From Candidatus Dadabacteria bacterium (GTDB taxonomy: Bacteria; Desulfobacterota_D; UBA1144; Nemesobacterales; Nemesobacteraceae), in NCBI GenBank assembly GCA_022827275.1, contig JAJDTG010000011.1, forward strand, positions 1 to 64,000: a stretch of 64,000 bases of DNA, written 5' to 3'. Within the stretch, counting starts at the first letter, position 1, and every line of letters starts with the position of its first letter. Below the pieces are notes generated by a model. The model searched no databases. It had not been told where the DNA came from and saw only the letters and a list, made by a program, of their open reading frames with translations. Shown here piece after piece: positions 4,280 to 17,388 of this stretch. The translations under genes were made by a program, and so were the position numbers.

Positions 4280-5440
4280 ATGACCAGAAAAGTCTTAAGA
4301 CGAACCCTGAGCTTAAACACCCTCGTACTTATCGCGCCCCTGGCGTTTTTCCTGTCTTTTGCTGTTCTCTCGTGCGACAACGATGACGGCTCCCCGGAAG
4401 AAAGCGGCCCTAGGGTCGGAATTGTATATGACAGCGTGGGAAAAGGTGACGGGTCATTCAATGATTCCGCATATGAGGGAATTAAAAGAGCCCAAGGGGA
4501 ACTTGGAGCGGTGGTGAGCGAGGAAACGACCGATGGAATGGAGAGCAACCGCGAGGAGTTGATTCAGTCTCTAGCCGAGGACAATGATCTTGTAATAGCG
4601 GTTGGATTTTCATTTGAGAGTTCAATAAAAAAAGTCGCGGCCGCCAACCCTGACACCAATTTCGCAGGTATAGATATCCTGCAGAGAAATGACTCGCCGG
4701 CGAACTTCGCAAGCCTAGTCTTTAACGAGGCCGAGGGATCCTTTCTGGTGGGCGTCGCGGCCGCCCTTAAAAGCGAAACCGGCAAAGTAGGCTTCATCGG
4801 AGGAGTATGCGGAACCCCCGACAGACTCATTGAAAAGTTCGAGGCCGGATTCGTCTCAGGCGTTTTGGCCATGGTAAAAGGGATTAACAGGAACATGGAA
4901 GTCGAAACAGTCTACCTTTCCCAGTTCTCCGACCCGCAGAATCCTGACGGGCCGCCCGACATAAGCGGCTTCTTTAACCCGGAGGGAGCCAAGGAAGCGG
5001 CGGAAGGAATTTTCAGCGGCGGTTCGGATGTCGTTTTTCATGCGGCCGGGGGCTCGGGAGCAGGGCTTTTCGAAGCCGCTAGGGAATTCAGTTCGCAGGA
5101 GAACAACTCCAAGGTCTGGGCCATAGGCGTCGACTCGGATCAGTACGGAACCAGCGAAGAATCCGTGCGGGAATACATACTGACCTCGATGCTTAAAAGG
5201 GTGGACACGGCCGTCTACAACATCATCAAGGCCCAAAGGGACGGCGAATTCTCAGGCGGGAGCGTAAACCACGACCTCGCAAACGACGGAGTGGGCTACG
5301 CCACGTCGGGAGGATTCGTAGATGACATCAGGGAACTGATCGAGGGTCAGAAAGCCTTCATAGTCCGCAACCTGTTTGATGTCCCGACCGCTCCCGTTAA
5401 AGGCTGCCGGGAACCGCAGACCTATAATCTGCGATATTAG
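4280..5440 (+). CDS. BMP-family (PnrA/Med-like) substrate-binding lipoprotein
   Basis: A 386-residue periplasmic binding protein of the basic-membrane-protein family, which captures purine nucleosides or related ligands for ABC import. The start chosen is ATG 4280, which gives a proper lipoprotein signal (positive N-region, hydrophobic core, VLSC lipobox). A TTG at 4235 would add 15 residues ahead of the signal and is less likely. The GSFND segment after the first strand and GGVCGTP/GVDSD blocks later are typical. No permease or ATPase gene is adjacent, so it is an orphan binding protein here and could equally serve as a receptor. Confidence 0.88.
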   Translation: MTRKVLRRTLSLNTLVLIAPLAFFLSFAVLSCDNDDGSPEESGPRVGIVYDSVGKGDGSFNDSAYEGIKRAQGELGAVVSEETTDGMESNREELIQSLAEDNDLVIAVGFSFESSIKKVAAANPDTNFAGIDILQRNDSPANFASLVFNEAEGSFLVGVAAALKSETGKVGFIGGVCGTPDRLIEKFEAGFVSGVLAMVKGINRNMEVETVYLSQFSDPQNPDGPPDISGFFNPEGAKEAAEGIFSGGSDVVFHAAGGSGAGLFEAAREFSSQENNSKVWAIGVDSDQYGTSEESVREYILTSMLKRVDTAVYNIIKAQRDGEFSGGSVNHDLANDGVGYATSGGFVDDIRELIEGQKAFIVRNLFDVPTAPVKGCREPQTYNLRY

Positions 5441-5682
5441 CACCACGCGAACTGCCCTCCCCGTGCAACATGCAGGGTCACATGCGGTGCTGATCTGAAT
5501 TCCAGATCCCGGAGTCCTGCAGAGAGATTTTCCATTATTGCGCATCAGAATCACCTGGGCAGACACAACGGCGATGTTTTTGCACTTGAACTCAGTGGTA
5601 CTTTTATGTTTTACTTAAGTTTAGGATTGTGCGATTTCGGGTCGCTATTTTAACGGGCGGCACAATAACCACGGAGGTAATG
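5441..5682. other. Intergenic region ahead of Cache copy 1
   Basis: It holds an imperfect stem near 5443-5494 (AGCACC pairing with GGTGCT), which could end the BMP transcript but lacks a T run, then AT-rich sequence and a GGAGG (5673-5677). I see no convincing gene in it. Confidence 0.5.
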
Positions 5683-7036
5683 ATGAATTTCAGAATTCAG
5701 AGAGTAATTTTAAGCTTCGTGCTTTCAGCCTTTTTTGCCTTGGGGCTTGTTTTTTCGTTTGGCATTGATGCATCCGCTGATCACGGGGAGGGGGGGGGGT
5801 AGAGTCGCAGAAGACGTTGATCCCACCAACAAAGAGCACGTAAGCGAATTTCTTGATAACGTAGTAGGTTATTATGAAGAAGCTTATTCCAGACACCCAC
5901 CAGATGCCTTCAATGCGCTGATCAGAGAAGTCAATATATACAGCAGGGCGGTAAGACGGGAAGGAGAGTACAAGCACGGAGAAATCTATTCTTTAAGCAT
6001 AAATAACAGAAATATAGTAACGAATCACGCAAGATATCCCAACCTGTTCGGTTATGAGTTTAACCCAGATGCCATGGGTTCCGATGTCGCAAGCACCATA
6101 AAGGCTTTGATTGAAGGCACAGAAGGTAAGCCAGGCATGAATCACTGTGAAACTTACGGCGGCGAAGCCATGAGATATGCCTGCGCACGCAGGGTGAATG
6201 ATCCCTACGGCGGACATTTAACATTCATAGCGGGACTTCGACACTCTGAAGATGACTCCGCTTTTTCTCCTCCCGACTGTAACGGGTTCGAGCTTGAAAC
6301 TTCAGCTGAAGTTGTACATGAAAATCCTACAGACGCAAATCTTGAAGCTTACGTAAAAGGGGTTATCAGCGTAGCTCAAAATCAATTTGCAGGAACAGTA
6401 TTAGCATCACTAACTGATTTGCCAAATCTTACAGGTCCGGCACGTACGTTTGACATACTCAGAAGAGCCTACGACCAATCCGCTTGCTACAGAATAGGAG
6501 ATCTCAAGCATGGAAACATATATACCTTCATTATGGAGGCGGAAGCGGATCCGGAAGAACCCGCCGCAGTGATTATAAACGGAAACAACTTTGATCTTAA
6601 CGGCACCAATCTGGAACTGAACGATGACAGACTGTCAGGAGAGCAGAATATAGCAAGACTGTTTACCCAAGAGCTGGGGAGCGCGGAAATCGGAAGCTCC
6701 ACTTACGTGAATTATCACTGGGATGACCCCACGAACCCTAACGATAACGTTGCGAACTTTCTTGAAAACGGTAAGGTTCCCGGCACTTCGTGCAAGAGAA
6801 GCTATATTGAGGTGGCAGACATAACCGGGGCGTTGCCGCCGGGTTTGCCTCTCGGTCCCACCCTGTACATCTTCGGCTCCGGAACTTATCCCGGAGATGA
6901 TGTCTGCGAGGCTGAAGATGATGACGGAGGATGCGCGATCGCGGGCACGGTGCATACGTACAAGGGCGCACTGCTTAACCTGTTTGTTATGGCCTTCGTT
7001 CTGTTTCCGGTTGCCCTCCTCAGAAGGCGCATGTAG
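5683..7036 (+). pseudogene. Cache-CTERM surface protein, copy 1, out of frame at a G10 tract
   Basis: The gene starts at ATG 5683 behind GGAGG and encodes a signal peptide matching copies 2 and 3. The ten Gs at 5790-5799 put a TAG stop at 5800, and the rest of the protein continues in the +1 frame to 7036. With nine Gs, or twelve, one frame of about 450 residues results. The body has two Cache-like domains (roughly residues 40-190 and 260-410). The second ends in SYIEVAD and a YIFGSGTY strand. The tail is an acidic linker, GGCAIAG, a hydrophobic segment and LLRRRM. This is either a phase-variable gene caught OFF, a recent frameshift, or a homopolymer assembly error. The sequence alone cannot decide. 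Confidence 0.75.
5790..5799 (+). repeat. Run of ten Gs in the coding region of Cache copy 1
   Basis: It lies just after the signal peptide (codons 36-39) and sets the reading frame of the remaining 410 codons. Tracts of this length are typical slipped-strand sites. Confidence 0.9.
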
Positions 7037-13699: not shown

Positions 13700-13986
13700 T
13701 GACTCCGGGTAGTGTATCGAGGGCGATGAAGGCAGCTGGAGTTTTCGCACTGGTCTTGGGACTGTGTGCCCTCTTGGCGGCGCAGGATCTGTCGCCTAAC
13801 ATCATCCTAGCGGGCAAGTCTATACCGGAGGCAGCTTCGGCACAGGCAGGGATCTCAGAGCGACTGCCTGACATTCTCCGGGAGGTGCCTTCTCCCTCGG
13901 GTTCCCGCCACACCTGCCTGAGGCGGGGACGGAACAGTTCCCACGGGATAATCGCGTTGAGTTTGACCAAAGGGTCTTTCTTGTGA
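13699..13986 (+). pseudogene. Small exported protein gene, broken by an IS5-like fragment
   Basis: ATG 13699 overlaps the SulP stop (TGATG), implying coupling. About 35 residues form a signal peptide (hydrophobic core ALVLGLCALLAAQ), followed by about 20 plausible residues. From about 13870 the frame runs antisense through a transposase fragment and ends at 13986. The original protein was probably a periplasmic partner of the transporter, and only its N-terminus remains. I do not recognise a family. Confidence 0.5.
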
Positions 13987-14033
13987 TCCAGCTTCACGTA
14001 CCTGCCCTCTTCTCCAAAATCCAGTTGTTCCAC
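13870..14033 (-). mobile_element. N-terminal fragment of an IS5-family-like transposase
   Basis: The minus strand encodes about 50 residues beginning MEQLDFGEEGRY and continuing through DPLVKLNAIIPWELFRP and RLRQVW. This is the usual N-terminal pattern of IS5-type transposases. The reading frame then passes antisense into the neighbouring small gene, and no DDE core is present. Confidence 0.65.
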
Positions 14034-14084
14034 TTTCCTGCCTCCGGCTTTACTCTATCTACGCCTTCCGCCCTGCAATTTGAC

Positions 14085-14094
14085 GGGGGGGGGG
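14085..14094 (+). repeat. Run of ten Gs upstream of Cache copy 2
   Basis: It lies at the outer edge of the IS5-like fragment and about 17 bp upstream of the presumed -35 of copy 2. It is the same length as the tract inside copy 1. Confidence 0.85.
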
Positions 14095-14110
14095 TATGTA
14101 GATATACTTT

Positions 14111-14140
14111 TTTACTGTTTAAAGTTTAACTGAATATACA
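14111..14140 (+). promoter_or_regulatory. Candidate promoter of Cache copy 2
   Basis: TTTACT (14111-14116) and TATACA (14135-14140) are separated by 18 bp. The start codon is about 60 bp downstream, behind GGGAGGG. Confidence 0.45.
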
Positions 14141-14198
14141 GGGATATTTTTAGAGATGCCTTATAGTTACAACAAATTTTATGGGAGGGACAATCAGG

Positions 14199-15617
14199 AT
14201 GAAGTTTAGAACATACGGAATGATTTTGAGCCTGCTTTTTGCGCTGGGGATTGTTTTTTCGTTCGGCATTGAGGCATCCGCAGATCACCCAGGGGGCACT
14301 GAGACCAAGACTGCGGCAGACACCAAAATCACAAGTGAGACAGATGTGAGGGCCTTTCTTGATCATATAATAGAATACTATAATGATAGTTACATCGCGG
14401 AAGATTCCCGCAATGAACAGGACAGGAAATTGGCAGTATACGGCAGGCAGATCAGGGAAGAAGGAACCTACAAAGACTCCGATACCAACATGTACAGCAT
14501 GGGAATAAACGAAGATGGGATTGTGACGAATCACCCGAGATATCCCAGTCTGTACGGTTACAAGTTTGTTTCGGATGCACCGGGTTCGGCGGTGGCGAGC
14601 ACCATACAAGATTTAATAAGCGCATCGGGTCTTGATAAGATGGAATGCAAAATGTATGGCGCTGAGGAAAGATGGGCCTGCGCAATCGAAGTGGACTCTC
14701 CTTCCGGAAAGGTGACTGTAATAGCCGGTCTTCATCACGCAGAAAATGACTCGGCTTTTATATTCCCTGACTGCACAGACTTGTTACGCGATAACTATAC
14801 TTCCGCTATGGAAGTTACTGATAAAGAAAGTCTCAAAAATTATGTAGAAGATGTTATTAAGATATCCGGAGATCTGCTAACCAAGGTTGGGACAGACCTT
14901 TTTATGGAACATCCAGGTATTTTCACAGCGGTCTTGGGACGTAATGCGACAGATGAACAAATAGCCGAAGCTGGAAAGTTGACATCTCAAAGACTCTTTC
15001 AGAAAATCGCCTGCTTAAGCAATGAAGACCCCAGCAGGGGCCCGGTTCTCAATCACGGAGCAATATACAGCTTTATCATGGGTACGGACCCGGCCGCCAC
15101 CGTGCTCATTAACGGGAATAACCCTGCTCTAAACGGCCTCGACCTTCAAGTGAATGACCCGAACCCCATTGGTGGAGCGAAAGCGAATATCGCAGAACTG
15201 ATTCACGATGCGGTAACAGATGACCAGGGAGAGTTAAAACTTGGACCAGGAGACGGAGCATTCGTTGAATACCACTGGGACGACCCCACAACCGACGCCG
15301 ACAACAACGAGGGCTGGTTTGAGAGGCAGGAGGTTCCCGGCAATTCGCGCAAGATAAGTTACGTCAGGGCAGCAGACATAAACGTACCTCTACCTGGGTT
15401 AGGCCAAATTGGCCCCCCCGCTATCTACATCTTCGGTTCCGGAATTTATCCAATGGATAGTGGAGACGGCGGTGATGGAGATGGCGGTGATGGAGACGGC
15501 GGTGACGGTGGATGCGCCATAGCAGGAGTCGGCAATACGTCTCAGGCCACCTTGCTCAACCTGCTTCTGACAGCGTCCGTTCTGTTCTCGGTAGTTTTTC
15601 TGAGAAGACGTATTTAG
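14199..15617 (+). CDS. Cache-CTERM surface protein, copy 2 (intact)
   Basis: A 472-residue secreted protein. ATG 14199 lies ten bases after GGGAGGG; an ATG at 14181 would overlap that site. The signal peptide occupies residues 1-27. Cache-like domain 1 (about 45-185) has the IVTNHPRYPSLYGY strand-turn and VIAGLHHAENDSAF. Cache-like domain 2 (about 285-410) shows NGNNPALNGLDL, YHWDDPTTDADN, SYVRAAD and YIFGSGIY. A Gly-Asp linker built on three 15-bp repeats leads to GGCAIAG, one hydrophobic helix and LRRRI. Such tails are cut and replaced by surface-sorting intramembrane proteases. There is no kinase, HAMP or methyl-accepting domain. A role in extracellular ligand binding is inferred. Confidence 0.75.
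   Translation: MKFRTYGMILSLLFALGIVFSFGIEASADHPGGTETKTAADTKITSETDVRAFLDHIIEYYNDSYIAEDSRNEQDRKLAVYGRQIREEGTYKDSDTNMYSMGINEDGIVTNHPRYPSLYGYKFVSDAPGSAVASTIQDLISASGLDKMECKMYGAEERWACAIEVDSPSGKVTVIAGLHHAENDSAFIFPDCTDLLRDNYTSAMEVTDKESLKNYVEDVIKISGDLLTKVGTDLFMEHPGIFTAVLGRNATDEQIAEAGKLTSQRLFQKIACLSNEDPSRGPVLNHGAIYSFIMGTDPAATVLINGNNPALNGLDLQVNDPNPIGGAKANIAELIHDAVTDDQGELKLGPGDGAFVEYHWDDPTTDADNNEGWFERQEVPGNSRKISYVRAADINVPLPGLGQIGPPAIYIFGSGIYPMDSGDGGDGDGGDGDGGDGGCAIAGVGNTSQATLLNLLLTASVLFSVVFLRRRI
15462..15506 (+). repeat. Three 15-bp tandem repeats encoding the Gly-Asp linker
   Basis: Units at 15462-15476, 15477-15491 and 15492-15506 differ by one base each. Each encodes GDGGD in phase, so copy-number change would lengthen or shorten the linker without shifting the frame. 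Confidence 0.8.
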
Positions 15618-16083: not shown

Positions 16084-17388
16084 ATGAAATTTAAAACGTA
16101 CGGAATGCTTCTGGGACTGTTTTTCGCGTTGGGGCTTGTTTTCTCATTCAGTATCAACGATGCAGAAGGCAGCCATGACGGCGCAGACAAGGTCGACCCC
16201 GGAGATGAACAGGAAATGTCAACTCTTCTTTCGCATGCGATAGATTACTACAACCAGGTCAGAGAGGAATACAAGGATGACCGCGCCGCGCTGATAAGAC
16301 AGCTGACAATATTCGCAAGAGACATAAGAAGGAACAGCACAGACGGCGGATTCTACAAGCACGAAGATATCTATATGATCGACGTAAACGATCTGGGCAT
16401 TGTGACGAATCACGCCGGACATCCGAAGAAACTGATAGGCCACAAGGTTAATCGAGATGCCGAGGGTTCGGAAGTTCTGGACACTTTAACGTCCCTGCTT
16501 GACGATCCAGGTCTCGAGGTGGGCAATCCTCCGGTGTGCAAACGTTACGAGAATGATGAAAGAGTAGCCTGCGCCGCCAAGGTAGATAGCGACCTCACCG
16601 TGGATGTAACGAATATAATAGGTCTTCGTCACGCAGAAGACGACTCCGCTTTTCTCCCTCCCGACTGTTCCGGTTTTGAGCTCGGCACCACCGCCAAGGA
16701 GGTTTACGAAGACCCGACCAACGACAACCTTAAAGCTTACGTGAAAGACATTATAAAAGCGGTTCAAGCGGACGTAGCAAGGATAACAGGCGAAGAAAGC
16801 ATGAAAGGACTTGAAGGGATTCGGGACCGTATAACCGCAAGAATTCAGGAACGGACTTTCTGTTTTGCAGAAGAAGGTGGGGATTTTAAGCACGGAAACA
16901 TATACGCCTTCATAATGTCCGCGGATCTTGAAAACTCCACAGTTATCGTGAACGGAAACAACTTTGACCTAAACGGCGGCAACCTCGCGCTTGAGGACGA
17001 AGAACTGGATCACGAGGATAAAACAATAGCGGGCCTGTTCAGCCGAGCACTGGCAGGCGGAACTTCCGCTTACGCCAACTACCGCTGGGACGATCCCACA
17101 ACCGATGACGACAACATCAGAAACTGGTTTGAAATAAATTCGGTTCCCGGCAGTTCGCCCAAGAGAAGCTATATTGAGGTGGCGAACTTGAACGCAGACA
17201 TAACAGGCGCGCCAGAGGATGTCTACATCTTCGGTTCTGGGATTTACCTGAAAGAAGATAGTGGTGATGACGATGACGGAGGATGCGCGATCGCCGGAGC
17301 GGGCAGTACGTCTCAGGCCACTCTGCTCAACCTGCTTCTGACGGCGTCCGTTCTCTTCTCGATTGTTTTCCTGAGAAAACGCGCGTAG
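16084..17388 (+). CDS. Cache-CTERM surface protein, copy 3 (intact)
   Basis: A 434-residue paralogue of copies 1 and 2, with AGGAGG ten bases before the ATG. It has a signal peptide (MKFKTYGMLLGLFFALG), Cache-like domain 1 with IVTNHAGHPKKLIGH and IIGLRHAEDDSAF, and Cache-like domain 2 with NGNNFDLNGGNL, YRWDDPTTDDDN, SYIEVAN and YIFGSGIY. An acidic linker precedes GGCAIAG, a hydrophobic helix and LRKRA. Its sorting tail is nearly identical to that of copy 2 in protein and DNA, while the ligand-binding halves differ widely. It is followed by a terminator and an aldehyde dehydrogenase, the same order left as a remnant after copy 1. Confidence 0.75.
   Translation: MKFKTYGMLLGLFFALGLVFSFSINDAEGSHDGADKVDPGDEQEMSTLLSHAIDYYNQVREEYKDDRAALIRQLTIFARDIRRNSTDGGFYKHEDIYMIDVNDLGIVTNHAGHPKKLIGHKVNRDAEGSEVLDTLTSLLDDPGLEVGNPPVCKRYENDERVACAAKVDSDLTVDVTNIIGLRHAEDDSAFLPPDCSGFELGTTAKEVYEDPTNDNLKAYVKDIIKAVQADVARITGEESMKGLEGIRDRITARIQERTFCFAEEGGDFKHGNIYAFIMSADLENSTVIVNGNNFDLNGGNLALEDEELDHEDKTIAGLFSRALAGGTSAYANYRWDDPTTDDDNIRNWFEINSVPGSSPKRSYIEVANLNADITGAPEDVYIFGSGIYLKEDSGDDDDGGCAIAGAGSTSQATLLNLLLTASVLFSIVFLRKRA

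Follow-up and report, generated by a model that had tools for sequence, protein, structure and literature searches.

Analysis of a 64,000-nucleotide stretch of a Candidatus Dadabacteria contig (hereafter the window) indicated that a gene whose Cache-like product is exported and probably membrane-anchored is very probably phase-variable through a slipped-strand poly-G tract, and that it is OFF in the assembly. We refer to this gene as copy 1. The window holds two intact relatives (copies 2 and 3), and the family has about a dozen members genome-wide. The features discussed are listed below.

5683..5799 (ATG 5680/5683), + strand: start of copy 1 (signal peptide plus first mature codons), tract included; ends at the TAG at 5800-5802, by translation.
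5790..5799, + strand: proposed slipped-strand switch (G10 tract); the orthologue of genome G009 has nine Gs at this base.
5801..7036, + strand: rest of copy 1 (411 codons), in the other frame; structure prediction gives two Cache-like domains; dN/dS 0.55.
About 6914-7033, + strand: C-terminal anchor-like segment of copy 1, within 5801..7036.
13895..14193, + strand (transposase start on the minus strand): terminal piece of an insertion sequence (IS; DDE_Tnp_1/DUF772); an element on contig C22 whose transposase is intact matches it at one end with 98% identity.
14080..14108, + strand: promoter-like TTGACG-17-TATACT, the spacer of which holds the second G10 (14085-14094); the layout recurs in 12 further tracts of this and related genomes.
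14199..15617, + strand: copy 2, intact frame; its ATG follows the promoter-like element by about 90 bases.
16084..17388, + strand: copy 3, without a long G tract; intact; dN/dS 0.28; used as the yardstick copy.

When translated from the ATG at 5683 (or that at 5680), copy 1 begins with a signal peptide, MNFRIQRVILSFVLSAFFALGLVFSFGIDASA, continues with DHGEGGG and terminates at the TAG at 5800-5802. The last part of DHGEGGG is encoded by the G10 tract, which occupies exactly positions 5790-5799 (codons 36-39) and begins four codons past the signal peptide. The original prediction, that ten Gs directly after the signal peptide force a stop at 5800, was thereby confirmed. The downstream frame is open from 5735 to 7036 and provides 411 further codons after the tract with no stops, ending in a membrane-anchor-like tail (...DDDGGCAIAGTVHTYKGALLNLFVMAFVLFPVALLRRRM) that comprises a glycine-cysteine motif, a hydrophobic segment and terminal arginines. 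As ten is a multiple of three plus one, the two frames are separated, and with nine Gs, as found in the orthologue, both are joined. Frame reading and the open G9 orthologue both indicate that the length of this mononucleotide tract, situated in the 5' part of the frame, sets whether a full-length or a truncated product would be made. No sigma-70 promoter for copy 1 was found in positions 5420-5820.

Tract length and state were compared among related genomes, all nameable members of which are Candidatus Dadabacteria metagenome-assembled genomes. The closest relative is G009, in which the genes flanking copy 1 are 98.8% and 96.9% identical at the DNA level. Its syntenic orthologue reads GGGGA-G9-CAGAGTC, with the tract at the same base as the GGGGA-G10-TAGAGTC of the window, and its frame is open through 477 codons (ON). 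This orthologue, together with the stop-free codons downstream, upholds the earlier claim that one G fewer joins the signal peptide to a well-preserved reading frame. Three more distant orthologues, in G008, G011 and G012 (66-69% identical protein), have no tract at the post-signal-peptide site and carry one instead in the signal-peptide core, where it is G9 and open in G008 and G8 and closed in G011 and G012. A third site is occupied in a paralogue, which has G8 and is ON in G006 (a single-contig chromosome) and has G9 and is OFF in G007. In these assembled sequences there are, in one family, three independent sites at which orthologues differ in tract length and state. A family tract at C23:57200 (G9) is GGGGTGGGG in a 98.6% identical relative, and therefore not every tract is a conserved switch.

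Two further observations concern tracts at other positions. An unrelated paralogue pair in the genome that contains the window has an open G12 on contig C5 (L076 157-168) and a closed G9 on contig C6 (L077 4642-4650); here the tract lies about 25 codons past the ATG, and related copies are present in G009. At loci L137, L138 and L134 (G012 C12, G013 C92 and G008 C52, respectively), G tracts adjoin the C-terminal GGGCA/TM anchor of family members. The G8 form at L134 loses the anchor, which suggests a switch between anchored and released protein.

We assessed whether runs of this length were expected by chance. G/C runs of 5, 6, 7, 8, 9 and 10 bases numbered 85, 16, 4, 0, 0 and 2 in the window; extrapolation of this spectrum (a ratio of about 0.24 per base) predicted about 0.07 runs of at least 10, versus the 2 seen. 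Both belong to one family, one lying within copy 1 and the other in front of copy 2. Codon choice was examined as well: in the window, 22% of glycines are encoded by GGG, and the 11 Gly-Gly-Gly triplets in its long frames include no GGG GGG GGG. Eight genomes of the genus together gave 136 G tracts of at least 9, of which 18 lay inside a family gene or no more than 1 kb upstream of one, versus 2.0 expected (P about 2e-12), a statistic in which orthologous tracts are counted repeatedly, related genomes are treated as if independent, and coding and noncoding DNA are pooled. In the genome of the window itself the count was 4 of 16, versus 0.24 expected. A chance run was rejected on the run-length spectrum and the family enrichment; a dinucleotide shuffle alone would not have sufficed, as its result (six 8-G runs versus 4.1 expected) was unsurprising.

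The codons downstream of the tract were then examined for constraint. Copy 1 compared with the G009 orthologue gave dS 0.107, dN 0.059 and dN/dS 0.55 (p=0.019), and the orthologues of G008, G011 and G012 gave 0.47-0.58 among themselves, though two of them are OFF. Copy 2 gave 0.60, and copy 3, which has no tract, 0.28. The genes flanking copy 1 gave dN/dS of 0.15 and 0.21 with dN of 0.005-0.017, and it is the contrast with the dN of 0.059 in copy 1 that would favor a decaying gene, one disabled by an accidental frameshift within G-rich sequence. Such a gene would not be expected to retain 411 codons free of stops or of a second frameshift, to show dN significantly below dS, or to share similar constraint with one ON and two OFF orthologues; we consider decay very improbable, and a pseudogene was rejected on the absence of stops and on dN below dS. 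Nor did the comparison reveal one invariant tract length across the relatives together with decay of the codons that follow it. The frame of copy 1 is constrained, and fast amino-acid change is as expected for a surface protein. Between the two nearest genomes, copy 1 changed in amino-acid sequence 4-11 times faster than both flanking genes, with a hotspot at about codons 100-125 (window 5801-7033 versus L098).

The true tract might instead have nine Gs, leaving copy 1 intact and the tenth G an assembly or sequencing error. Long G runs are error-prone, the window comes from a 25-contig draft, and the nearest orthologue is G9 and open. An error of this kind leaves unexplained why tracts recur at several positions within one gene family, the mixture of ON and OFF states in separate assemblies and the enrichment near surface genes, and a one-base error at copy 1 would still leave the tract a candidate switch; we therefore regard this explanation as unlikely. 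Long homopolymer runs are also slippage sites for polymerases, and RNA polymerase slippage on G10 could yield some full-length protein from the OFF form with no change in DNA. As such leaky expression would account neither for orthologues that differ in tract length nor for a tract that has moved to another site, we consider it highly improbable as an account of these tracts, only marginally less so than decay.

Phase variation of copy 1, as originally predicted, is very probably the correct reading, given the differing tract lengths and states of its orthologues and the constraint downstream; the OFF state, also part of that prediction, holds for the assembled consensus. Slipped-strand mispairing at replication would change the length of the G tract just past the signal peptide. 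Any multiple of three, nine for example, would join the signal peptide to the mature protein (ON), and ten Gs would give a 39-residue product ending at the TAG at 5800 (OFF), the state of the assembly. We infer that the tract varies in length within a single population, that the variation is reversible, and that surface expression changes with tract length.

The original description of copy 1 as a Cache protein was supported only indirectly. Searches of Pfam and NCBIfam gave no usable match for copy 1, and copy 2 matched dCache_2 in Pfam at E=0.02, below the cut-off. Paralogues on contigs C22 and C23 matched dCache_2 at the profile level above the cut-off (E=6e-14 and 5e-8). A fairly confident AlphaFold2 model of copy 1 (pLDDT 83) had PAS/Cache-type sensor folds as its nearest solved structures, the best match being the single-Cache chemoreceptor domain 2qhk/4exo (probability 0.99, TM 0.46-0.51 on the target); longer matches were poor. 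The label thus lacks a Pfam match and is favored by the paralogues and by a predicted fold with modest TM-scores. Copy 1 is fairly described as an exported and anchored Cache-like protein, probably of two domains. No kinase or chemotaxis module is attached to it.

The second G10 of the window (14085-14094) lies outside any frame and fills the spacer of TTGACG-17-TATACT, which matches the consensus at 10 of 12 positions; 0.4 such sites were expected in a 400-base region. In this and related genomes, TTGAC was found within 4 bases of a G/C run of at least 8 in 13 of 204 oriented tracts, versus about 0.8 expected; these 13 are not independent, being for the most part copies of one IS end. A -10-like hexamer is present at 14-17 bases in every one of them. 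They include tracts of a different, non-IS family of secreted proteins, with C9, C10 and C11 in three otherwise similar leaders, and in a C9/C10 pair the leaders of the window's genome and of G009 are 98% identical and one C apart. The TTGAC-C9/C10/C11-TATTCT leaders are located at L086 4135-4143, L164 1785-1794 and L165 2056-2066. Matching IS ends in G008 and G009 precede a family member, secreted proteins of 717 and 756 residues and an RTX-like protein, and one IS copy, that on C22, disrupts an unrelated region. The G10 before copy 2 is a predicted second type of switch, located in a promoter spacer and recurring in the genus; its promoter activity is predicted from these motifs. We rejected the alternative that the G-tract element before copy 2 is an old feature of the family, as the element is an IS end and the sequence further upstream is unrelated in the G006, G009 and G013 orthologues.

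Genomes of the genus contain 4-30 G tracts of at least 9 each by pattern search, the method used for all genome-wide counts. Most order-mates have fewer per base in counts uncorrected for base composition, although G015 and G038, among others, depart from this. The surveyed loci held 97 unique tracts of at least 9, and 35 of these (36%) were near secretory starts, versus 8.8% of random positions in the same loci; near was defined as 300 bases before to 150 after a secretory hydrophobic start, with signal peptides called by a crude hydropathy rule. The majority of the genus's tracts lack an evident gene context. Twenty-nine proteins with a tract at or near the start matched LRR (4), RTX (2), Spondin_N (2), cadherin (2), Calx-beta (2), bacterial Ig (2), SRCR, fn3, subtilase and TonB receptor domains. 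As these proteins were hand-picked (long frames beside tracts), the counts describe the set and do not prove enrichment. At L156, L162, L194 and L198, large leucine-rich-repeat secreted proteins have G/C tracts of 9-15 either at the signal peptide or immediately ahead of it. At L087 5482-5493 (C23:55481 in the window's genome), a G12 lies in the leader of a two-SRCR-domain protein (Pfam E=3.6e-30), directly past a TTGACA-18-TATAAT-like promoter; the G009 leader has no tract. Loss of mismatch repair was rejected as the general cause of the many tracts, since MutS and MutL genes are present in the window's genome and in nearly all genomes of the genus.

Promoter repeat tracts that change spacing are found at porA and opc. 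Such tracts have also been described for nadA of Neisseria meningitidis and hia of Haemophilus influenzae (PMC11475388), and the G10 before copy 2 and the C9/C10/C11 tracts resemble them in lying between -35-like and -10-like hexamers, with spacers of 14-17; in contrast, the Dadabacteria promoters are predicted only and several elements are transposable-element ends. Copy 1 is closest in kind to hmbR and hpuA of N. meningitidis, which exhibit poly-G phase variation in open reading frames (PMC3786947): a mono-G tract in the frame of a surface protein, the length of which sets the frame, with ON and OFF forms among relatives. Copy 1 differs in coming from an uncultured sponge-associated phylum and a different protein family, in having its tract at different sites in orthologues, and in that its switching is predicted from sequence. 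The leader G-repeat of the Helicobacter pylori tlpB chemoreceptor mRNA is targeted by the sRNA RepG (PMC8295292). The G12 at C23:55481 likewise lies in the 5' leader of a surface gene, although that gene encodes a different protein, an SRCR-domain protein. As in the phasomes surveyed in Campylobacter (PMC6321876) and Neisseria (PMC5953494), there are many simple-repeat loci per small genome with a bias to surface genes; here, unlike those phasomes, about 4-30 G tracts of at least 9 per genome occur in sponge-associated Dadabacteria, beside eukaryote-like domains.

Simple-repeat phase variation has been described mainly from small-genome animal pathogens (PMC11475388). Within the library searched, no paper contained both 'Dadabacteria' and 'phase variation', and searches on phase variation in sponge symbionts returned nothing on point. 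Classical poly-G phase variation is apparently unreported in this lineage. The mechanism is of a known kind; what is new is the host lineage, the tract density and the targets. The sponge origin of these Dadabacteria is deduced from record and isolate names and from papers on sponge Dadabacteria metagenome-assembled genomes (PMC8163846, PMC12648040). We tentatively propose, as a possibility we hold at somewhat less than even, that the surface repertoire of a whole genus of sponge-associated Dadabacteria is set stochastically. Host-contact proteins of symbiont cells would be turned on and off by the poly-G/C tracts that lie in the frames, promoter spacers and leaders of genes for Cache-like, LRR, cadherin, Calx-beta, SRCR, Spondin-N and RTX proteins, and the end of a transposable element with an outward TTGAC-Gn-TATACT promoter would spread switches to new genes. 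Cadherin and fibronectin-type domains are reported to be enriched in sponge symbionts (PMC8163846), and the tracts of this uncultured lineage appear aimed at domains thought to mediate contact between symbiont and sponge. If the switching is real, the sponge would meet a mixed symbiont surface, and the long-standing puzzle of how symbionts escape being eaten by a filter feeder would become testable from the tract lengths in existing metagenome reads.
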